Part shown: positions 3,320 to 19,744 of the stretch, one piece after another
How the letters are laid out: every line of letters begins with the position of its first letter
Numbering within the stretch: the stretch's first letter is position 1
Source of the DNA: Microbacteriaceae bacterium VKM Ac-2854
GTDB lineage: Bacteria > Actinomycetota > Actinomycetes > Actinomycetales > Microbacteriaceae
Length of the DNA stretch: 64,000 nt
Assembly: GCA_013205085.1 (NCBI GenBank)
Contig: JABMLH010000003.1
Location: 1-64,000, forward strand
Reading direction: 5' to 3'
Position numbers and translations under genes: made by a program
Notes under the pieces: model-generated
The model's input: only the letters and a program-made list of their open reading frames with translations
The model's database searches: none
What the model was told of the DNA's origin: nothing

Positions 3320-3423
3320 CCATCGCTTCGATCATGGGTCGACGCAGAGCCTCCGGGTAGGGCCGTTGGTCCCTCGCCTGGTATCGGGCGGTATCGGCGG
3401 TCGGCGGTCGTACGCTATGGCGC

Positions 3424-3870
3424 ATGACGAGTGGACACCTGCCTTCCTCCCGATTGACGTGGCACGAGAAGCACACGCGTTCTCTGACGTTCGGGGAGCG
3501 GTCGGCGGATGTGATGCGCAATTCGATGGGGAGCTGGCGGTTCGTGTTCGGCTTCGTCGCGTTCATGCTCGTCTGGGCGATGGTCAACTCGTTCTCGGCC
3601 GGGTGGGACGCGTACCCGTTCATCCTGCTGAACCTGTTCTTGAGCATGCTGGCCGGGCTGCAGGGCGCCATCCTGTTGATCGCGGCGAAGCGTCAGGACG
3701 GCATCGCGGCCGCGCTTGCGCAGCATGATTTCGACACGAATGTCACGGCGAAGGTCGACATCGAGGCGCTGCTGGAGATCAACCGGAACCAGGCCGTGCT
3801 GCTGGATGAGATGTGCGAGATGCTGCGGCGGATCGACGCTCGCCCCGGAGCAGTCGTGACGGTGCCGTGA
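3424..3870 (+). CDS. DUF1003 membrane protein
   Basis: A 148-aa protein with the DUF1003 pattern: a basic N-terminus, two membrane helices (about residues 40-58 and 64-86) linked by a short loop containing NSFSAGWDAYPFILLNLFLS, then LIAAKRQD and a cytoplasmic helix ending NQAVLLDEMCEMLRRID. The function of the family is unknown. A TAnnnT box (TACGCT, 3410-3415) is eight bases before the ATG, so a leaderless or near-leaderless transcript is plausible. The 3' end overlaps the convergent membrane-protein gene by 92 bases, which is unusually long. Confidence 0.82.
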   Translation: MTSGHLPSSRLTWHEKHTRSLTFGERSADVMRNSMGSWRFVFGFVAFMLVWAMVNSFSAGWDAYPFILLNLFLSMLAGLQGAILLIAAKRQDGIAAALAQHDFDTNVTAKVDIEALLEINRNQAVLLDEMCEMLRRIDARPGAVVTVP

Positions 3871-4306
3871 CCGGCCAGCCGCCAAGAATGCCGAAGAGGA
3901 GAACGAGCTGGAGGATGCCGCTGCCGAGGTAGAAGGCGTGCAGGATCGAGTAGCCCGGGAGCAGCGCCACTTCCACGTGGATCCAGATGACCATTCCCAG
4001 CGCGGCGACGACGCTGGCGGCGGGGAACCAACGGTTCCGGCGCAGTTGCAGGATTGCGGCGGTCAGTTGCGTGCCTCCGACGACGACGGCGAGGATCACC
4101 CCCGGAACGACGAAGTCCGAGAACGGTGAGCCGGCGAGCAGCGTCCGTGGCAGGCCGAGACCGTCGGCGAAGACGAGCCCGACACCGCCCCCGATAGCGG
4201 AGGCGGCGCTGAAAATCTGCACCGTCAGCAGCAGGATCTCGGAGCCGCGCCGCCGGCGAGAACCTGCCACGGTCGGCCACTCGTCTCGGAGACGTCCGGG
4301 GCTCAT
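3779..4306 (-). CDS. four-helix integral membrane protein, unknown function
   Basis: A 175-aa protein with an N-terminal basic stretch (SRRRR) followed by four hydrophobic helices at about residues 25-47, 62-84, 95-116 and 121-145. The C-terminal tail is Arg/Ser/Ala-rich and is encoded in the overlap with the DUF1003 gene. I do not recognise a named family. The gene is divergent from the universal-stress-protein operon. One of two inverted DevR-box-like sites (4465-4479) lies about 160 bases upstream of its start, so it could be a co-regulated member of the same stress response. Confidence 0.65.
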   Translation of the reverse strand: MSPGRLRDEWPTVAGSRRRRGSEILLLTVQIFSAASAIGGGVGLVFADGLGLPRTLLAGSPFSDFVVPGVILAVVVGGTQLTAAILQLRRNRWFPAASVVAALGMVIWIHVEVALLPGYSILHAFYLGSGILQLVLLFGILGGWPVTAPSRLLRGERRSAAASRTSHPAARPGSG

Positions 4307-4464
4307 ACGGCCGCGGCAATGTCGGTGGTGATCCAGCGCGTCGGGAGCGGATCGGGGGCGGTCGGCAACATCAGGGCTCTCTCATCGGCTCTCCTCGGCG
4401 TCGACTGCGGCTGCAGCTCATTCCGGGGATACCCGAAGGATGAGCGCGCAGCCTGCGCCGACCT

Positions 4465-4479
4465 AGGGCCGAACGTCCC
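4465..4479 (-). promoter_or_regulatory. DevR/DosR-box-like site, distal copy
   Basis: AGGGCCGAACGTCCC is the exact reverse complement of the site at 4533-4547. Read as GGGACGTTCGGCCC, it matches 11 of 14 positions of the mycobacterial DosR core GGGACTWWAGTCCC (consensus quoted from memory). It lies between two divergent genes beside a DevRS-like system. Binding is inferred. Confidence 0.5.
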
Positions 4480-4532
4480 GATCGATGACGCGCCGACCGT
4501 CGGCCCCGTGCGCCCGGGCTCGCGGGTGAAGC

Positions 4533-4547
4533 GGGACGTTCGGCCCT
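4533..4547 (+). promoter_or_regulatory. DevR/DosR-box-like site, proximal copy
   Basis: GGGACGTTCGGCCCT lies 68 bp downstream of its exact inverted copy and 69 bases before the start of the universal-stress-protein gene, a typical distance for an activator site. The rest of the 4307-4615 gap shows no other clear element. Confidence 0.55.
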
Positions 4548-4615
4548 GGCCCGGCTCACGGTCCGCAGTCCACGCTGGCGGTAGCCGGATCCGGCTGGGG
4601 TGAAAGGACTCTTCC

Positions 4616-6469
4616 ATGAATGCACAGCTCGTCGTCGGATGGGACGGTTCCGCTTCGGCGCGACGCGCGCTCGAATGGGCTCTCCGACAGGACGCCGACG
4701 CGATCCTGTTGGTCGAGGTGGTCGACGGCCTGGACCCGCTGGGTGGCTGGGACGTGGGGGATGACCCGCGCGCCGACGGCGCCGTTTCGTTGGAACTCGC
4801 AGCCGCGGACGCGATCCGAAGCCACCCCGGCGCGGTCGTGACCACCCGCGTCGTCACGGGCGACCCGTTGTCGGAACTCGCCCGTCTCGCGGGCCCGGAT
4901 TCGCTGCTCGTCGTCGGGGATCGTCAGCGCACGATGCTGCGCTTCCGAGCCGGATGGAGCCTGGGCGCCCGACTGACCGCGATCGCGGCCGGCCCGGTCG
5001 CGATCATCGCGCCGGACCCTGCGCCGGATGCGTCCGGGGTCGTGGTCGGGATCGATGATTCCGACGACGCCCGCTCCGCGCTCGTGTTCGCCGCCGCGTG
5101 GGCCGCCCACTTCGGCGAGACGTTGCACGTCGTGCACGCCTGGCATGTCCCGTTCCTCTGGCACGACCGCGGGATGCCGCCGGCGGAGTTCCTCGCCGAG
5201 CTGCAGGCGCAGCACGCGCAGGTCCTCGCCGACGCCGTCGCCGAGGCGCGCCGTGTGCATCCGGAGCTGGACGTCGTCGGCGCGAACGTCGACGGCACGG
5301 CCGCCCGCGCCCTGCTGAACGCCTCCGTCGGCCGGTCCCTGCTGGTGGTGGGCGACGGCGGCACGACGGCAATCGACCGGATGCTGCTGGCGTCCGTCAG
5401 CCACGACATCCTGCTCAATCTGTCCATCCCGACCGTCATCGTCGGCCTACACGCGACCAGCGTTCCCGCCGTTCCGGTGCAGTCTCCGGACGGGGCTCTC
5501 GGCGTCACGGTGGCGGACTCCGTCCCGGATCCCGCTGTGGTGCCCCCCGCCCACACCATCGTCGGATGGGATGGCAGCCTGCCGTCGCGTTCGGCGCTGG
5601 AGTGGGCGGTCGCCCGCGAACGCTCCCGCCGCGGCCTGGTCGAGGTCGTGATGATCGCCGATGAGTCGGTCGCGGTACCGGACTCGGCCGCGGCCGCATC
5701 GGCCGTCGGCTTCGATGAGCGGGCCGTCGAGCGGCTGCTGGATCAGGTGCGCCGCACTGCTCCCGATGTCGCCGTCCGCGGTCGCGTCGTGCGCGGCTTC
5801 GTTCTGCAGACCCTCGCGGAACTCACCCGCCCCGGCTGTCTGCTCGTGCTGGGCACAGAGGACCGCGAAGGTCCGCGGCTGCGTTTCGACCTCTCCGTTG
5901 GCGCCCATCTGGCGGCACTGGCCCATGGACCGATCGCGATCATTCCGCGCACCGTCGATGCGACCCTCGTCGGCGTCGCGGTCGGTGTGGATGCCTCAGA
6001 GCTCGCGAACGCGGCGATCCTGGTCGCCGCGGCGGAAGCCGAGCGGCGCAGTGAAACGCTGCACCTCGTGCACGCCTGGGTGGAACCGACTCTCTACGAG
6101 AGCACCTACCTGCTCGACGTCGAGTTCCTCGCCGCGCTCGAGGCCGAACACCACCGCATCCTCGTCGCCGCCGAGCTCTTCGCGCGGACCAGCTATCCGA
6201 CGCTGCTGATCGAGACGCACCTCGTGTTCGGCGACCCGGCGCGCGCGCTCACCGAGCTGACGCCGCGTCCCGCGATGATCGTCGTCGGCACCCGCGGACT
6301 CACCGGCTGGCGCCGCGTGCTGCTGGGCTCGGTCAGCCATCAGCTGGTGCTGAACCTGACGGTACCGCTCATCATCGTCGGGGCTTCGTCGGCCCCCCAT
6401 CCTGACATTCCCGAAGAGCCCGAGTCACGAGCAGAAGCGACCGGTATGAAGGAAGAGGCGTTCGTATGA
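4616..6469 (+). CDS. four-domain universal stress protein
   Basis: A 617-aa protein made of four UspA-like domains, about residues 1-138, 140-280, 312-447 and 448-600. Domains 2 and 4 keep recognisable ATP-binding ends: [20 protein letters not shown], and [20 protein letters not shown] with G-x2-G-x9-G-S. Domains 1 and 3 have the fold pattern, but the glycine loop is lost ([30 protein letters not shown]). The order degenerate-canonical-degenerate-canonical suggests duplication of a two-domain Usp. Known USPs bind ATP and act in dormancy or stress survival. An AAAGGA ribosome site precedes the ATG. The stop overlaps the phosphoketolase start by ATGA, so the two are coupled, and two DevR-box-like sites lie upstream. 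Confidence 0.85.
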
Positions 6470-8997
6470 CGATCCTCGGACATCCCGTCAGCACCCGCAC
6501 CCCGCCCGCCGCCTGGCCGGCGCGGCCGGTCGAGCTTCTCGCACGTCGGACGGTGGATGAGCTGGACGCATGGTGGCGGGCGGCGAACTACCTCTCGATC
6601 GGACAGATCTACCTCCTCGACAACCCGCTGCTGCGTGAGCCGCTCACGGCCGCGCACATCAAACCGCGGCTGCTGGGCCACTGGGGCACGACGCCGGGGC
6701 TGAACTTCATCTACGCACACCTGAACCGGGTGATCCGCGACCGCGATCTGAACGCGATATTCATCACCGGTCCCGGGCACGGCGGGCCGGGTATGGTCGC
6801 GAACACCTACCTCGACGGTACCTACAGCGAGGTCTATGGAGACATCGACCGATCGACCGATGGCGTGCGAAAGCTGTTCCGGCAGTTCTCCTTCCCCGGA
6901 GGCATCCCCAGCCACGTCGCCCCCGAAACTCCCGGTTCCATCCACGAAGGCGGCGAGCTGGGCTACTCCCTCTCGCATGCCTACGGCGCCGTCTTCGACA
7001 ATCCTGCTCTCCTGGTCGCCGCCGTCGTCGGTGACGGTGAGGCGGAGACCGGCCCGTTGGCGACGAGTTGGCACTCGAATAAGTTCATCGACCCGCTGCA
7101 CGACGGCGTCGTGCTGCCGATCCTGCACCTCAACGGCTACAAGATCGCCAACCCCACCGTCCTTGCCCGCATCCCCGAGAAGGAGCTGGAGCAGCTGATG
7201 CGCGGCTACGGGCACACCCCGTACCTCGTCTCGGGCGGCTTCGCCGGCGAAGACCCCCGCGACGTGCACCGCCGCCTCGCAACCGCGATGGATCAGGCGT
7301 TGAATCAGATCGCGCAGATCAAGGCCGACGCCGCCACCGGGCGACTCGACGGCCGCCCGGCGTGGCCGATGATCATCCTGCGCACCCCCAAGGGCTGGAC
7401 CTGCCCGGCATTCATCGACGGCCTACCGGCCGAGAACAGCTGGCGCTCCCACCAGGTCCCGCTCGCGAACGTCCGCGACACTCCCGCGCACATCGCGGTC
7501 CTCGAGGAGTGGCTGCGCTCGTACCGTCCCGAGGAACTCTTCGACGACGAGGGCGCCATGGTCCCGCTGGTGACCGCCCTCGCCCCCAACGGTGCGCGAC
7601 GGATGAGCGCGAACCCCGTCGCGAACGGCGGGCTGCTGCGTCGGCCCCTGCACCTCCCGGATTTCCGCGACTACGCGGTCGATGTGCCGACCCCGGGCGC
7701 GACGACGAGTTCCGCGACGGGCGTGCTGGGCACGTGGCTGCGGGATGTCATCGTCGCGAACCCGCACGACTTCCGCATCTTCGGACCCGACGAGACCGCC
7801 TCCAACCGGCTGCAGGCCGTGTTCCAGGTGACCGACAAGCAGTGGGATGCGCAGGTGCGCGACGTCGACATGGACAACCACCTCGCCCGCTCCGGCCGCG
7901 TGGTGGAGATGCTCTCCGAGCATCAGTGCGAGGGCTGGCTGGAGGGGTACCTGCTCACCGGTCGGCACGGGCTGATCAATTCGTACGAGGCGTTCATCCA
8001 CATCGTCGATTCGATGTTCAACCAGCACGCCAAGTGGCTCAAATCCTCCCGCGCCATCCCGTGGCGGGCGCCGATCGCGTCGCTGAACTACCTGCTCAGC
8101 TCCCACGTCTGGCGGCAGGACCACAACGGCGCCTCGCACCAAGACCCCGGCTTCATCGACCACGTCGTGAACAAAAAAGCCGACATCGTCCGGGTCTACC
8201 TCCCGTTCGACGCGAACACGCTGCTCTCCACCTACGACCACTGCCTGCGGTCGGTCGACTACATCAACGTCGTCGTCGCCGGGAAGCAGCAGGAAGCGAA
8301 CTGGCTCTCCATGCCGGACGCGATCGAGCACTGCACCCGCGGCCTGGGCATCTTCAACTGGGCCGGATCCGAACGGCCTGGTCAGGAACCGGATGTGGTC
8401 CTCGCCTGCGCCGGCGACGTGCCCACCCTCGAGGTGCTCGCCGCGGCGATGCTGCTGCGCGCAGAGATCCCGACGCTGAGGGTGCGGGTCGTGAACGTCG
8501 TGGACCTGATGCGACTCCAGAGCGAGGGCCAGCATCCGCACGGCCTCCCGGACGCGGAATACGACGCGATCTTCACCTCCGACAAGCCGGTGATCTTCGC
8601 GTACCACGGTTATCCGTGGCTGATCCACCGGCTCACCTACCGCCGCAGCGGGCACGCGAACCTGCACGTGCGCGGCTTCATCGAAGAAGGCACCACCACG
8701 ACTCCGTTCGACATGGTGATGCTGAACGAGCTGGACCGGTACCGGCTGGTCATCGACGTCCTCGACCGCGTCCCGGGCCTCGCCGCTCGCGAGGCGCTGC
8801 TGCGGCAGCGGATGCAGGACGCGCGGGTTGAAGCGCGCGCATACACCCGCGCGTACGGCACCGACATCCCCGTCGTCGCCGACTGGAGCTGGACCGGCAG
8901 CGGCCCGCAGGGAGCGAGCTACCACCTCATCGACGTCCGAGACGATGAGCACCCCCACGATCGGGGCGCCGTTGAGCGCGCCGCCACGCTTCAGTGA
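6466..8997 (+). CDS. xfp: xylulose-5-phosphate/fructose-6-phosphate phosphoketolase
   Basis: An 843-aa thiamine-diphosphate enzyme that cleaves xylulose-5-P and/or fructose-6-P with phosphate to acetyl-P plus a C3 or C4 sugar phosphate. Family signatures are plain: TGPGHGGPG near residue 104, [19 protein letters not shown] at about 189-207 (ThDP/Mg site), and [13 protein letters not shown] at about 550-562. The N-terminal sequence [15 protein letters not shown] and [11 protein letters not shown] are also typical. The length is slightly above the usual 790-830 aa. It sits second in an operon with the stress protein. Acetyl-P could yield ATP through acetate kinase without respiration, which fits a low-oxygen role. 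Whether it uses F6P as well as X5P cannot be decided here. Confidence 0.95.
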
Positions 8998-9128
8998 CGC
9001 CTCCGGTGACGTCTCTGGGCTGTGCGGCTGCGGGTCCGCGGTGAAGTGCCGAACGAGGTGTCGCCGGGCGGGGAACTCGGCGATGATGGGAGGGCTGAGG
9101 TCAGCCGACTGTGGCGGAGCGGAGTCTC

Positions 9129-10823
9129 ATGCCACAACTGGATCCTCTCCCCATCGGCCGCGATGGGGATTCGCAGGCGGATGGCATCTCCGGGCGGCTT
9201 CGAGCGTTGTTGCGCGCGAACCAAGCCGTCGTGGAAGACATCGACCTGCCCGCCGTGCTCCGCCGCATCGTCGATGCCGCCATTGAACTCGTCGACGCCG
9301 AATATGGCGCGATCGGCGTCCTCGGCGCCGGCGGATCCCTGGTTGAGTTCATCCACGTCGGCATGGACCCCGACCAGGTCGATGCCATCGAGCACCTGCC
9401 AGAAGGTCACGGGCTGTTGGGGACTTTGATCACCGACCCGCAGCCGATCCGTGTGGATCACCTTGCCGCCGACCCCCGGGCCCATGGCCTCCCCGCAGCG
9501 CACCCACCGATGCGGTCTTTCCTGGGCGTTCCGATCCGCGTGCGCGATCAGATCTTCGGGAACCTGTATCTGACGAATGCCCGCGCCGGCACCTTCTCCT
9601 CCAACGACGAGCACCTCATCGTCGCGCTCGCGGCGAACGCAGGCGTCGCCATCGACAACGCCCGCCTGTACACCGAGACGCGGTTGCGTCAGCGCTGGGC
9701 CCAGGCGGCGGCCGAGATGACCGCCGCGATCCTCGCCAGCGACGGCGAGGACGTCATCGGTCTCGTCGCTACCCGCATCCTCGACATCGCCGACGCGGAC
9801 ATCGTCGGGATCGTCTTCCCGACCGACGACCCGGAGGTGCTGCGCATCGGCGTCGCCCGCGGCACCGGTTCAGACGAGTTCGAGGGACGGCTGATCCCCG
9901 CCCGGCACTCCATCTCCGGCAGCGTCCTCACCGGAGGACGACCTCGCCGACTCGATCGGATCCCGACCTCTACGAGCGGCGGAACGCCCACCTCGGGCGG
10001 CCCCGTCCTCGCCGTGCCCCTCGTCGCGGCGTCGCGCACGCTCGGTGTGCTCGTGGTCACTCGTCGGGAGGGGCGCCCGATGTTCACCGCCGCGGACGTG
10101 GACATGGTCTCCGACTTCGCCGCCTACGTCAGCGTTGCGATGGAACTCTCCGCCGCCCGTGCCGATCAGCAACGCATGCTGCTGCTCGAGGATCGCGGAC
10201 GCATCGCCCGCGACCTGCACGACCACGTCATCCAGGAACTCTTCGCCACGGGCCTGGACCTGCACCAGGTCGCCGGCGTCCTGCCGCCGGGCACCGCCGC
10301 GGCGCGGATCGGCCGCGCCGTGGACAGCCTGGATGTCAGCATCTCCCACATCCGCACCGTGATCTTCGCGCTGAACGCGAACACGGGCGACACGGTCACC
10401 GTCCGGCACCGGATCCTCGACCTCGCGAACGAGCTCGCCGTCATCCTGACCCGCACTCCGAACATCAGCTTCGCCGGTACCGTCGACCTCCTGGTCGTCG
10501 ACGAGCTCGCCGATGACGTTCTCGCTGTCGCGCGGGAGGCGCTGACCAACATCGCGCGCCACGCGGAAGCCAACATCGTCACGCTGCAGCTCACCGCCGC
10601 CGACGGCATGATCGTCCTCGAGATCTCCGACGACGGGCACGGCTTCACGGGTGCTGGCCGGCGCAGCGGACTCGCGAACCTGCGGCAGCGCGCCGAAGAC
10701 CGCGGCGGCACCTTCAGGATCTCCAGCACTCTCGGAGACACCCGGGTGCGCTGGAGCGTCCCCTTCCCACAGCAACACTTCCCGCCGCAACTTTTCGCGC
10801 CGCAACATCGAGAAGGGACATGA
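9129..10823 (+). CDS. devS: DevS/DosS-like double-GAF sensor histidine kinase
   Basis: A 564-aa soluble kinase with GAF (about 38-187), GAF (about 200-345), HisKA_3 dimerisation/phosphoacceptor and HATPase domains. It closely resembles mycobacterial DevS/DosS. The segment HPPMRSFLGVPIRVRDQIFG (125-144) matches the DevS region containing the haem-ligand His149, so His125 is a candidate haem ligand. The phosphoacceptor is the first His of DLHDHVIQE, at residue 364. The ATP lid includes DDGHGF and GLANLRQRAEDRGG. No membrane segment is present, so it should sense an internal signal such as O2, NO, CO or redox state. The ATG at 9129 has GGAG upstream; a GTG at 9111 is possible. The stop overlaps the response-regulator start. 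Confidence 0.88.
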   Translation: MPQLDPLPIGRDGDSQADGISGRLRALLRANQAVVEDIDLPAVLRRIVDAAIELVDAEYGAIGVLGAGGSLVEFIHVGMDPDQVDAIEHLPEGHGLLGTLITDPQPIRVDHLAADPRAHGLPAAHPPMRSFLGVPIRVRDQIFGNLYLTNARAGTFSSNDEHLIVALAANAGVAIDNARLYTETRLRQRWAQAAAEMTAAILASDGEDVIGLVATRILDIADADIVGIVFPTDDPEVLRIGVARGTGSDEFEGRLIPARHSISGSVLTGGRPRRLDRIPTSTSGGTPTSGGPVLAVPLVAASRTLGVLVVTRREGRPMFTAADVDMVSDFAAYVSVAMELSAARADQQRMLLLEDRGRIARDLHDHVIQELFATGLDLHQVAGVLPPGTAAARIGRAVDSLDVSISHIRTVIFALNANTGDTVTVRHRILDLANELAVILTRTPNISFAGTVDLLVVDELADDVLAVAREALTNIARHAEANIVTLQLTAADGMIVLEISDDGHGFTGAGRRSGLANLRQRAEDRGGTFRISSTLGDTRVRWSVPFPQQHFPPQLFAPQHREGT

Positions 10824-11467
10824 TGGCCGCCATCCGCGTCTTCCTGCTCGATGACCACGAGATCGTCCGTCGCGGCCTCGCCGAACTCCTCGCTGCCGAG
10901 GACGACATCGAGATCGTCGGCCAAGCCGGCACCGCCGCCGCCGGCACTCCGCAGATCCTCGCACTGCGACCGGACGCCGCCGTCTTGGACGTGCGGCTGC
11001 CCGACGGCAGCGGTATCGACGTGTGCCGGGACGTCCGCTCCCGCGACCCGCTGGTCCGCTGCCTCATCCTCACGGCGTACGACGATGACAAAGCCCTCTA
11101 CGCCGCCGTCATCGCGGGCGCGTCCGGCTACGTCTTGAAAGACATCCGCGGCAAAGGTCTGCTCGACGCGATCCGCCGCACAGCCGCCGGTGAGGTTTTG
11201 ATCGAACCCGCGATCATCGCCGCGGTCATCGCGCGTCTGCGCGGCGAGCATCAGGTGGATCCGCGTCTCGCCGGGCTCAGCGACCGCGAACGGCAGATCC
11301 TCGCGCTGATCGCCGACGGTCTGACCAACCGCCAGATCGGCGTGGAGCTCTCCCTCGCCGAGAAGACGATCAAGAACTACGTCTCCAGCGTCCTGAGCAA
11401 ACTCGGTCTTGAGCGGCGCACCCAAGCCGCGGTCCTGCACGCAGAACTGCGCCCGCCCACCCCGTGA
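10820..11467 (+). CDS. devR: DevR/DosR-like NarL-family response regulator
   Basis: A 215-aa receiver plus LuxR-type HTH protein. Receiver residues are Asp11/Asp12 (LLDDHE), phospho-acceptor Asp57 (VLDVRLPDG), Thr of LILTAYD and Lys of GYVLKDI. The DNA-binding end SLAEKTIKNYVSSVLSKLGLERRTQAAV closely parallels DevR, including the KTxKNYV recognition helix that contacts DNA in DevR/DosR. ATG at 10820 overlaps the kinase stop (ATGA), with AGAAGGG upstream; a second ATG follows at 10823. It is predicted to be phosphorylated by the upstream kinase and to bind the GGGAC-type boxes at 4465, 4533 and 12042. The binding is inferred. Confidence 0.88.
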   Translation: MMAAIRVFLLDDHEIVRRGLAELLAAEDDIEIVGQAGTAAAGTPQILALRPDAAVLDVRLPDGSGIDVCRDVRSRDPLVRCLILTAYDDDKALYAAVIAGASGYVLKDIRGKGLLDAIRRTAAGEVLIEPAIIAAVIARLRGEHQVDPRLAGLSDRERQILALIADGLTNRQIGVELSLAEKTIKNYVSSVLSKLGLERRTQAAVLHAELRPPTP

Positions 11468-11505
11468 CAACGGGCGGGGCGGACGCAGGTACGGGGTGTG
11501 CCGGA

Positions 11506-11928
11506 CTAGACGGTGGTCTCGGTGTCGGTCTTCTCGACGGAGGGCAGGACGATGTCGTTGATGCGGACGTTGACCGCGGTGACCTCGAGGCCGACGATGG
11601 TTTCGACGGCGAGGATGATTGCGGCGCGGACGTCGGAGGCGACCTGCTGCAGGCTCATCGGGTACTCGGCCGAGAAGGTGACGTCGATACTGACCGTGTT
11701 CTCCGTGACGGTGACGGAGACGCCCTGGCTGTGGTTGACGGCGTTCAGCGCACCGCGGACGGCGCCGATGACGCGCGTCGCGGCGCCGCCGAGCTCGTGC
11801 ACGCCGGTGACGTCCTGCGCGGCGAGACCGGCGACGGTGGCGACGACGTCGTGGTCGATGGTCGTGGTTCCCAACTCGGTGTCGGCGGGAGTGGTCGAGA
11901 TGGTCGGGGTGGTGGTTGCGGTACCCAT
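11506..11928 (-). CDS. Asp23/Gls24-family envelope stress protein
   Basis: A 140-aa protein of the Asp23 (alkaline shock) family. It has TTIDHDVVATVAGLAAQDVTGVHEL, a central GVSVTVTENTVSIDVTFSAEY strand pair, and VRAAIILAVETIVGLEVTAVNVRINDIVLP. Family members cluster at the membrane and respond to cell-envelope stress. The start is the ATG at 11928, chosen because AAGGAG lies five bases upstream; an in-frame ATG at 11952 lacks this. A DevR-box-like site lies about 114 bases upstream of the start, linking it to the two-component system that ends 38 bases away on the other strand. Confidence 0.85.
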   Translation of the reverse strand: MGTATTTPTISTTPADTELGTTTIDHDVVATVAGLAAQDVTGVHELGGAATRVIGAVRGALNAVNHSQGVSVTVTENTVSIDVTFSAEYPMSLQQVASDVRAAIILAVETIVGLEVTAVNVRINDIVLPSVEKTDTETTV

Positions 11929-12041
11929 AACGGCTCCTTGTCCGCCCGTCACCGGGCATCGCGGAGACGGCTCATGATCGCGCGTATGCGTTTATGCCGC
12001 CACTCCTATTTCAACGGTAGAGACCAGAGTCGGGCGGCTGT

Positions 12042-12056
12042 AGTGCCGAAAGTCCC
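12042..12056 (-). promoter_or_regulatory. DevR/DosR-box-like site upstream of the Asp23 gene
   Basis: AGTGCCGAAAGTCCC, read on the minus strand as GGGACTTTCGGCACT, is identical at 13 of 15 positions to the two boxes at 4465 and 4533. It lies upstream of the Asp23 gene in the right orientation and range for activation. Confidence 0.5.
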
Positions 12057-15232: not shown

Positions 15233-16687
15233 TTACCGTCCCGCGGCCACCCGCTCCGCGCGGCGGGAGCGCGCGATCCCCCATCCCACAAGCAACGCCG
15301 AGACGACGGTGAGGGCCAATCCGGCGACGACGACCGTGCCGTCGAACTCCGCACGCTGCTGAGCGCCCCAGTCCCCCGCGGCGATACTGCCCGTGAACAG
15401 CGCCGCCAACACCGTGCCGGTCACGGCGATGCCGACGGCTGAGGCGACCTCGCTCGACGTGTCCACCAACGCTGCTCCGATCGTGGTCCGATTCGACGGC
15501 AGCCCGCGCATCACGTTCGTGCCGGCCGCCACACCGACCACGCGCATCCCCGCCGACACCAGCACCAGAGACAGCGCCACCCACACATACCCGAATCCAC
15601 TCAGGAGCGCGTAGACCGCGAGCCCGACCACCACCAGCACCGAACTGATCCACGCCGCACGCTCCAAGCCGACGCGCGCGATGAACGGCGAGACGATCGC
15701 GCCTCCCGCGACCAACACCACGACCTGCGGCAGCATGCCGAGTGCAGCGAGGGCCGGCGGCCATCCCCAGGCGAGCTGCAGCTGCAGAGTCACGAGGTAC
15801 CCGAGCCCCGCCGTCGCCAGCCCGGTGGCCGCTTTGAACGCGAGCCCACTCGACACGAGCGGACGCGCGACCAGCGCCAGATCGAGCAATGGATACGGCG
15901 CCGAGCGCTCGCGGAGCACGAACGCCGCGCCAGCCAGAACGGCCCCCGCGACGGCAACCCAGGCGCCCCAGAACCCGGCGCCTTCATCGACGAACAGCGT
16001 CGGCGCGACGAGGCCCAGCACGATCGCCGCGGTCGCGAAGACGGCGCCCGCGATGTCCACCGGATCCCGGTGCAACTCCCCCGGTGCATCTGCGGGAACT
16101 CCGAACCGGATACCCGCGAATGCCAGCGCCGCGATGGGGGCGTTCACCAGCAGCAGCACCTGCCAGGGTGCGATCGCCAGCACGAGGCCTCCCGCAGTCG
16201 GCCCGACCGCGAGACCGACGAGACCGACGGTCGAGATCAGCGTCATGGCGCGCACCCGCAAGCCCTCTTCGGCGAAGAGCCGGAAGGCCAGCGCCATCGA
16301 ACCAGGCGTGGTCATCGCCGCCGCCACGCCCATCGCGACGCGCACCGCGATCAACTCCTCCGCTGTCGTCACGAAGGCCGTCGCGATACTCGAGACCCCG
16401 AGCAGCACCAGACCGAGCAGCATGATCCGTCGACGCCCGACGCGATCGGCCAGAGCCCCGAGTGCCAGCATCAGCCCGCCGAAGACGACCGCGTAGGCGC
16501 CCGTCACCCACTGCATCCCCGTCGTCGAGGCATGCAGTTCCCGACCGATCGTGGGCAGGGCGACGTTGAGGATCGAGTTGTCGAGCATCTCGAAGAGGAA
16601 GACGGCGGACAAGCCGGCCAGCGCGACCCACGCTTCGCGCAGCGACCGCGGCGACGGCGCGGTTGGGATGATGGTTGTTGAAGACAC
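15233..16687 (-). CDS. MFS drug exporter, DHA2 (EmrB/QacA) family
   Basis: A 484-aa transporter with about 14 membrane helices. The start LFEMLDNSILNVALPTIGRE corresponds to DHA2 motif (LDxTIVNVALP) in TM1, with GALADRVGRRRIMLLGL (motif A) after TM2 and GPTAGGLV in TM5. Proton-driven export of hydrophobic or cationic drugs is the family role; the substrate is unknown. It is divergent from a TetR gene with a palindrome in the 51-bp space between, so it is probably repressed by that regulator and induced by its own substrate. Confidence 0.9.
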   Translation of the reverse strand: MSSTTIIPTAPSPRSLREAWVALAGLSAVFLFEMLDNSILNVALPTIGRELHASTTGMQWVTGAYAVVFGGLMLALGALADRVGRRRIMLLGLVLLGVSSIATAFVTTAEELIAVRVAMGVAAAMTTPGSMALAFRLFAEEGLRVRAMTLISTVGLVGLAVGPTAGGLVLAIAPWQVLLLVNAPIAALAFAGIRFGVPADAPGELHRDPVDIAGAVFATAAIVLGLVAPTLFVDEGAGFWGAWVAVAGAVLAGAAFVLRERSAPYPLLDLALVARPLVSSGLAFKAATGLATAGLGYLVTLQLQLAWGWPPALAALGMLPQVVVLVAGGAIVSPFIARVGLERAAWISSVLVVVGLAVYALLSGFGYVWVALSLVLVSAGMRVVGVAAGTNVMRGLPSNRTTIGAALVDTSSEVASAVGIAVTGTVLAALFTGSIAAGDWGAQQRAEFDGTVVVAGLALTVVSALLVGWGIARSRRAERVAAGR

Positions 16688-16700
16688 GCGAGTAGCTTAA

Positions 16701-16718
16701 GTCACTACAGTTAGTCAC
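16701..16718. promoter_or_regulatory. TetR operator candidate
   Basis: GTCACTA-CAGT-TAGTCAC is an 18-bp near-palindrome (6 of 7 arm positions) in the middle of the divergent promoter region between the MFS and TetR genes. It is the only palindrome there. Confidence 0.6.
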
Positions 16719-16738
16719 ACAAGAGAGTTGGTCGGAGA

Positions 16739-17368
16739 ATGGCGAGAACGGATGCGCGTGGCGGACCCCAGACGCGCGCGCGGATCGCGGAGATCGCCGC
16801 CGGGCTGTTCGCCGAGCGCGGCTACGACGCCGTCACCGTCGCCGACGTGGCCCGAGCGGCCGGCGTCTCGAGCCAGACGGTGTTCAACCATTTCCCGCGG
16901 AAGGAGGATCTGTTCCTCGATCGTGGCGACGAAGCGGCGACCATCCTGCGCGAGGCGATCCGTGAGCGCGAGCCCGGCACGGATGCTCTCACCGCCCTGC
17001 AGGAGATGACGAACGCACTCCTCGCCGCGCAGCATCCGCTCTCCGGCGCCGACCCACGATCGACGCCGTTCTTCCGGACGCTCGCCGGCTCCCCCGCGCT
17101 GATCGCACGGGCGCGCGAGATCGCGGCCGGTCTTCAGGCCGTTCTGGCTGACGAGCTGCGGCACGACGAGACGTTCGAGGCCGACGCGCAGCTGCTCGCC
17201 GCGTTCTTCGTCGCGGGATACGCCACGGTGCTTGCGCAGACGGCCCGCCGCCTCATCGACGGCGAGCCGGTCACCGATCACACCGAGCGCTTCGCCCGGA
17301 TGTTCGACGCCCTTCGCCAGGGCCTCGAGAGCGGCCTCGAGAGCGGCCTGGAGAACGGCGCACCCTAG
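16739..17368 (+). CDS. TetR-family repressor of the divergent MFS exporter
   Basis: A 209-aa regulator with the TetR HTH at about residues 12-57 (IAAGLFAERGYDAVTVADVA, then RAAGVSSQTVFNHFPRKEDL). The ligand domain is variable, as usual. The C-terminus carries a small in-frame tandem repeat, GLESGLESGLENG, from a repeated 12-bp unit near 17322-17360. Its divergent placement and the palindrome between the genes point to local control of the exporter. It ends four bases from the convergent UvrA-like gene. Confidence 0.88.
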   Translation: MARTDARGGPQTRARIAEIAAGLFAERGYDAVTVADVARAAGVSSQTVFNHFPRKEDLFLDRGDEAATILREAIREREPGTDALTALQEMTNALLAAQHPLSGADPRSTPFFRTLAGSPALIARAREIAAGLQAVLADELRHDETFEADAQLLAAFFVAGYATVLAQTARRLIDGEPVTDHTERFARMFDALRQGLESGLESGLENGAP

Positions 17369-17371
17369 GAA

Positions 17372-19740
<2,369 letters not shown>

Positions 19741-19744
<4 letters not shown>

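Follow-up and report, generated by a model that had tools for sequence, protein, structure and literature searches.

A conserved DevRS-type local regulon predicted to drive phosphoketolase and Asp23 genes in a bacterium of the family Microbacteriaceae

DevR regulons have been studied mainly for their part in mycobacterial growth arrest. In Mycobacterium tuberculosis, which to our knowledge lacks the phosphoketolase gene xfp, the DevR-DevS/DosT (DosRS) system combines kinases having a haem-binding GAF domain, the regulator DevR, a GGGAC-type palindromic box, and a universal stress protein (USP) gene upstream of the pair. This upstream gene is Rv3134c, which precedes devR (PMC5069765). We analyzed a related locus of Microbacteriaceae bacterium VKM Ac-2854, lying within the first 64,000 nucleotides of contig JABMLH010000003.1; this whole stretch (G000:C12:1-64000, from a genome of 4.75 Mb assembled in 18 contigs) is called the window below. 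The locus, at 3.3-12.1 kb of the window, very probably forms a local regulon of the DevRS/OsdKR type that would run a usp-xfp operon, an asp23 gene, a divergent membrane protein gene, and possibly a DUF1003 gene. Compared to the M. tuberculosis arrangement, xfp is found between the USP gene and the kinase gene, the kinase gene comes before the regulator gene, and asp23 has a box; whereas the regulon of M. tuberculosis holds approximately 50 genes, the one predicted here has few genes at one place. Outside the mycobacteria, four boxes in 9 kb would make a small model regulon in which sensor, box, and metabolic output stand together.

Three other described systems bear on this locus. The OsdK-OsdR pair of Streptomyces coelicolor (SCO0203-0204) belongs to a stress island encoding USPs, Zn-dehydrogenase, nitroreductase, and PNPOx, all of which are in the predicted OsdR regulon (PMC5069765). 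The same genes are found in congeners of our strain, but "phosphoketolase" and "Asp23" have 0 occurrences each in the main text of that paper. In Mycobacterium massiliense, MMASJCM_2507-2524 is a like grouping of USPs, an alcohol dehydrogenase, and a USP-xfp-DevR-kinase run, which was placed in 2014 among the lineage-specific genes of Table 2 of PMC4263727. Its authors suggested a role in hypoxic survival, and growth at approximately 6% oxygen was not significantly different between M. massiliense and M. abscessus; the locus is presented as a gene list, with neither a box nor regulation given in the parts of the paper that deal with it. Finally, Xfp-derived acetyl phosphate likewise feeds acetate kinase in the Bifidobacterium shunt, where the phosphoketolase route is the main sugar path (PMC6456759), whereas our strain, presumably an aerobe, would use it as a side route induced by stress. 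No statement naming xfp or asp23 as a DevR target was found in the open-access papers searched. The original prediction, made from the sequence of the window, had held that no regulon of such composition was described, and this stands to the extent that none was found shown as a regulon. However, the M. massiliense gene list had been published, and the part of the congeneric islands made up of USPs, dehydrogenase, and nitroreductase is the known DevR/OsdR set. What appears to be new is the outputs, xfp and asp23, of a conserved DevRS-type local regulon whose physiology is predicted.

The genes of the cluster are as follows.
3424-3870, plus strand: DUF1003 membrane protein gene (PF06210), possible regulon member
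3779-4306, minus strand: small membrane protein gene, 175 amino acids, family unassigned; among 296 other genomes of the order, 18 encode a relative
4616-6469, plus strand: USP gene with four Usp domains (PF00582, four stretches)
6466-8997, plus strand: phosphoketolase Xfp gene, 843 amino acids (PF09364, PF03894, PF09363)
9111-10823, plus strand: DosT/DevS-like sensor kinase gene, GAF-GAF-HisKA_3-HATPase (Pfam domains; structure matches of the first GAF domain, GAF-A)
10820-11467, plus strand: DevR-like response regulator gene, REC-LuxR (REC-GerE by Pfam), best solved relative DevR
11506-11928, minus strand: Asp23-family gene, divergent (PF03780, E 3.9e-22)

The original prediction of a DevS-like double-GAF kinase and a DevR-like regulator beside a USP/xfp operon and an Asp23 gene agrees with these Pfam domains and coordinates. 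Xfp is full-length with three XFP domains and scored 1417 bits in NF003619, against a cut-off of 962; its closest relatives among the named genomes found are from Microbacteriaceae (78% identical in a metagenome-assembled genome and 80% in Leifsonia sp. 71-9). The end of usp and the beginning of xfp share 4 bases, the regulator start (10820) overlaps the kinase stop (10823), and the kinase start is likelier to be the ATG at 9129 than position 9111. Given its relatives in other genomes of the order, the open reading frame at 3779-4306 on the minus strand is judged a real gene, probably transcribed divergently from the box at 4466; among the congeners, a partial relative was found in G007 only. 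Six of the 18 loci with its relatives (approximately 3.4 kb each) contain a DevR-type box with at most one mismatch.

Four DevR-type boxes are assigned to the cluster.
3360-3373, plus strand: box GGGCCGTTGGTCCC, one mismatch, between a hydrolase gene (minus strand) and the DUF1003 gene (plus strand), either of which it may serve
4466-4479, minus strand: exact box GGGACGTTCGGCCC, from a pattern scan of window and genome
4533-4546, plus strand: exact box GGGACGTTCGGCCC of the usp-xfp operon, from the scan and from conservation in congeners
12043-12056, minus strand: box GGGACTTTCGGCAC of asp23, one mismatch, exact in three congeners

The exact GGGACNTTNGNCCC pattern occurred at 2 sites in the whole genome, both upstream of usp-xfp, and the reversed control pattern at 1. 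The two exact boxes point away from each other between the membrane protein gene and usp. The cluster boxes fit the published DevR/OsdR consensus (PMC5069765 and PMC2947987), given for OsdR as AGGGCCGATCGGCCCT with sites such as AGGGACCTTCGGCCCC (PMC5069765). A common GGGAC-type box on both flanks had been part of the original prediction, and boxes were indeed found upstream of both usp-xfp and asp23; the box at 3360-3373, 64 bases upstream of the DUF1003 gene, was absent from it. With up to one mismatch allowed, the window contained 5 boxes versus 1.47 expected, a number reached in 2 of 100 shuffles.

Conservation of these boxes was assessed in 14 congeneric genomes. An xfp that was 87 to 89% identical was present in six of them, five of which also had a 79 to 81% identical kinase nearby. 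In the seven usp-xfp promoters (our strain and the six congeners), the stretch CGGGACGTTCGGCCCTG was recognizable every time against diverged flanks. The box pattern was exact in six of the seven and had one mismatch, the loss of one base, in G008; in G004 and G013 one base was changed at positions that are free in the pattern. All four fetched stretches that contain asp23, our own included, had a box at this gene, which was exact in G001, G007, and G013. The 14 bases of the box at 3360-3373 were identical in four of six congener stretches (G001, G004, G006, and G013). The DUF1003 gene was present in five genomes, including our own, and had the box 63 to 64 bases upstream in four; in three congeners the box was 63 bases upstream of a DUF1003 gene 80 to 81% identical to ours, and in G006 this gene was missing there. 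In G008, a 54 to 55% identical kinase and a 66% identical regulator were located at a separate locus beside boxed USPs. The congeneric islands add USPs and Zn-dehydrogenase, PNPOx, BON, and nitroreductase-like genes, along with alanine dehydrogenase in G006 and G008; our genome retains only the core of the island. Our genome has only the boxed xfp; another xfp, 71 to 74% identical, was found in 12 of 15 genomes (split in two in G005), six of which also have the boxed one.

The spacing between box and predicted promoter was also conserved. Among the 29 distinct boxes from our own and the congener stretches, 26 had NANNNT exactly 23 nucleotides downstream, compared to a mean of 0.83 across spacers 8 to 49 (23 included). 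Within our genome, NANNNT at spacer 22 to 24 on either side was found at all four cluster sites versus 9 of the 45 one-mismatch sites elsewhere. The corresponding elements of the window are as follows.
4437-4442, minus strand: predicted -10 CATCCT of the divergent promoter, spacer 23 from the box at 4466-4479
4571-4576, plus strand: predicted -10 CACGCT of usp-xfp, spacer 24
4583-4596, no strand assigned: palindrome AGCCGGATCCGGCT, near the predicted usp-xfp transcript start
12014-12019, minus strand: predicted -10 TACCGT of the asp23 promoter, spacer 23

On its minus side, the box at 3360-3373 has CATGAT at spacer 23. Known DevR sites center near -42.5, and the box-to--10 geometry is that predicted for a regulator overlapping the -35 region. 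This box-N23-NANNNT grammar may be usable for predicting DevR targets elsewhere. The boxes are convincing as putative regulator sites through their conservation in congeners together with this geometry.

None of the nine outside sites with NANNNT was taken as a regulon member, six of them being within predicted genes with no gene start nearby. The sole candidate with a gene start in the right direction was the one-mismatch box GGGAGTTTCGGCCC at G000:C15:106483-106496 (L284), with GAACAT at spacer 24 and the gene start 133 bases on, inside another predicted gene. In the congeneric loci L154 (17326-17369) and L153 (19081-19141), divergent box pairs separate a USP gene from a dehydrogenase or BON operon, with a spacer of 23 for three of the four boxes and of 22 for the fourth. 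Close to the predicted usp-xfp start, AGCCGGNNCCGGCT was found in all seven usp-xfp promoters. The palindrome at 4583 was rejected as a specific operator, as it occurs at 6 places in the genome (5 besides 4583), and it is perhaps a 5' hairpin. The congeneric asp23 leaders in L150, L153, and L155 contain the inverted repeat CACGATCGC-N6-GCGATCGTG after the -10 element, which is degenerate in the window.

The kinase and regulator were compared to solved structures. The kinase GAF-A domain matched DosT (2vzw) at E 4.6e-46 and four DevS chains at E 7e-43 to 9e-42, with the whole length aligned; the ATPase domain matched DosT and DevS structures (3zxq and 3zxo), and the second GAF domain, GAF-B, matched 2vjw, which is annotated simply as a "GAF family protein." In the alignment to DosS, H131 of our kinase falls at His149, the proximal haem ligand, and Y153 at the distal Tyr171. 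The proximal His, the distal Tyr, and the kinase His were retained in 17 of 17 kinases (that of the window, 6 congeneric, and 10 from other loci). The same 17 kinases have Gly at the position of DevS Glu87 and DosT Gly85, which is the DosT state; the functions of these DosS/DosT haem-domain residues are described in PMC4082495. The original prediction of a haem-type GAF kinase is thus borne out by the structure matches and the retained His131 and Tyr153, and haem binding by GAF-A is expected from these residues. For the regulator, the best solved relative was DevR (3c3w, E 2e-69), well ahead of the next family, VraR (3.9e-41), in agreement with its earlier naming as DevR-like. It retains the phospho-Asp context VLDVRLPDG and has the recognition helix AEKTIKNYV, compared to AEKTVKNYV in DevR, in which Lys179, Lys182, and Asn183, all three kept in our regulator, contact DNA. 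The next-best full-length match to the regulator within our genome was 42% identical (E 8.6e-42). For the kinase, and for the regulator among the best 25 of 73 matches, no NCBIfam family exceeded its cut-off.

From these features the following mechanism can be proposed. Loss of oxygen from the haem of the first GAF domain, or binding of NO or CO to it, would lead the kinase to autophosphorylate and pass the phosphate to the DevR-like regulator. The phosphorylated regulator would then bind the GGGACNTTCGGCCC boxes, whose centers are approximately 43 bases upstream of the predicted transcript start, and activate usp-xfp, asp23, the divergent membrane protein gene, and possibly the DUF1003 gene. 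Xfp would cleave xylulose-5-phosphate or fructose-6-phosphate to yield acetyl phosphate, from which acetate kinase could make ATP in the absence of respiration. Transcription continuing from usp-xfp into the kinase-regulator pair would provide positive autoregulation, as for Rv3134c-devRS. Phosphoketolase as a metabolic output supplying acetyl phosphate and ATP is plausible because the acetate kinase and phosphotransacetylase genes (ackA and pta) are present and adjacent in this genome, at C11:691490-693699. If DevR induces phosphoketolase in a range of actinomycetes, it could provide an oxygen-independent supply of ATP once respiration stops.

Boxes upstream of xfp were also sought in other genera. 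Of 296 genomes sampled across the class, 177 had a PF09364 match, and from these 100 loci were drawn, one per genome and with our own genome excluded (the first 79 genomes in listing order and 21 picked further down). An exact box within 350 bases upstream of xfp was found at 5 of the 100 loci (L228 included, G188 not), compared to an expectation of 0.08 based on the remaining sequence of these loci (Poisson 3e-8); 40 shuffled patterns gave a mean of 0.15 and a maximum of 2 exact matches. With one mismatch the count was 9 versus 1.3 expected (Poisson 9e-6). Of 80 genomes (L169-L248 of the 100), 7 had a DevR-like gene no more than 10 kb from xfp, versus 0.46 expected, with distances taken start to start and the seven genomes picked by eye. 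From a further set of 80 named xfp loci, 33 entered the spacer count and 45 a scan of the upstream region, where 11 of the 45 had a box with at most one mismatch within 250 bases. The xfp-upstream boxes of other genera comprised 18 distinct sequences, 8 of which were followed by NANNNT at spacer 22 to 24, whereas control triplets of spacers gave a mean of 1.05 and a maximum of 3; distinct sequences were counted, since G188 shares its promoter with L047 and L228 with L059. A kinase match was found within 10 kb of xfp at 3 of the 80 named loci (L065, L097, and L109), and the USP-xfp-kinase-regulator order of the window at none. The link between box and xfp is, on these counts, a recurrent but minority trait.

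Several observations weigh against a DevRS-controlled local regulon or narrow its extent. Genome-wide, one-mismatch boxes showed no excess (49, versus 50 for the reversed control), so that box number alone is weak evidence, and a larger regulon based on this count was rejected. In the genome-wide box search proposed with the original prediction, the exact pattern was confined to the cluster, and its one-mismatch relatives were as frequent as controls. Among the loci examined, the other USP genes of our genome had two-mismatch boxes or none, and the regulon is therefore taken to be small. The kinase-regulator pair lacks its own box, 8998-9128 containing none with at most one mismatch. A simple scan for terminators detected none in this interval, and such scans, like those for sigma-70 promoters, yielded nothing useful. 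The usp-xfp box of the window has a spacer of 24 rather than 23, and the congeneric promoters are non-independent samples, yet several different genes follow the spacing rule. In other genera, 91 of the 100 xfp loci had no box with at most one mismatch. The looser consensus GGGMCNNNNGKCCC, found upstream of xfp at 10 of the 100 loci, was rejected, as the best of 40 shuffled patterns also reached 10, and the presence of a DevR-like gene was uninformative as a discriminator, being found in 78 of 80 xfp genomes.

Against this background, three other explanations were considered. The cluster might be DevRS controlled with a kinase that senses redox state or general stress, and with phosphoketolase serving carbon or redox balance (less NADH per sugar) instead of anaerobic ATP supply. 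We regard this as possible, though clearly less probable than gas sensing by the kinase. Some authors have argued that DevS is a redox sensor, but the Gly found at the Glu87 position in all 17 kinases is tied by some authors to stable oxygen binding (PMC4082495). Other stress uses of xfp are also apparent, since on actinobacterial plasmids genes for heavy-metal or copper P-type ATPases lie at most 7 kb from xfp in five of six regions, as does type II GAPDH in three of six, with no kinase or regulator match in any of the six. Given the DosT-like Gly, direct gas sensing of the DosT kind, with oxygen as the signal, is likelier than redox sensing of the DevS type.

That the boxes are bound by another NarL/LuxR regulator, with the adjoining DevR-like pair a bystander, is unlikely. 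NarL-type sites are alike, and the regulator has 36 other matches in our genome, but the pair adjoins boxes that fit the DevR/OsdR consensus, its recognition helix agrees with that of DevR, and the G008 counterparts of the pair (kinase 54% and regulator 66% identical), located elsewhere in that genome, are again beside boxed USPs. A chance neighborhood of unrelated genes and fortuitous GC-rich palindromes is highly improbable: it could account for the frequency of one-mismatch sites, which equals that of the reversed controls, but appears already contradicted by the conservation in seven of seven promoters, and both the spacing fixed in 26 of 29 boxes and the enrichment upstream of xfp in other families also stand against it. 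Control of the cluster by its own DevRS-type pair thus remains our preferred reading.

A further extension of DevRS control is speculative, and we consider it doubtful. The inclusion of xfp in the regulon raises the prospect of metabolic feedback via acetyl phosphate: xfp might be a recurrent DevR target across Actinomycetes, and acetyl phosphate from Xfp might itself phosphorylate DevR, latching the switch even with the kinase silent. Such a feed-forward loop would last while sugar phosphate lasts, and the acetyl phosphate would also feed acetate kinase. Activation of DevR by acetyl phosphate was reportedly described in 2019. The loop is suggested by the phosphorylation of OsdR and DosR by acetyl phosphate in vitro (PMC5069765 and PMC12919924), but the title of PMC4973870 calls phosphorylation dispensable in DevR activation.

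The five plasmid xfp regions near copper/heavy-metal P-type ATPases are from Mycolicibacterium, Citricoccus, Pseudarthrobacter, Corynebacterium, and Rhodococcus (L293 and L295-L298), three of them also being near type II GAPDH. This arrangement is perhaps a bypass of glycolysis under metal stress. In the Georgenia plasmid (L294), acetate kinase adjoins xfp, unlike in the other five regions. Plasmid mobility of a DevRS-xfp unit was rejected, with the kinase and regulator unmatched at E 1e-5 in the 6 opened of 208 xfp plasmid records. Elsewhere in the window, consecutive genes at 15236-19744 encode an MFS transporter, a TetR regulator, and an ATPase of the ABC type whose UvrA DNA-binding match is weak, resembling a drug-response set.

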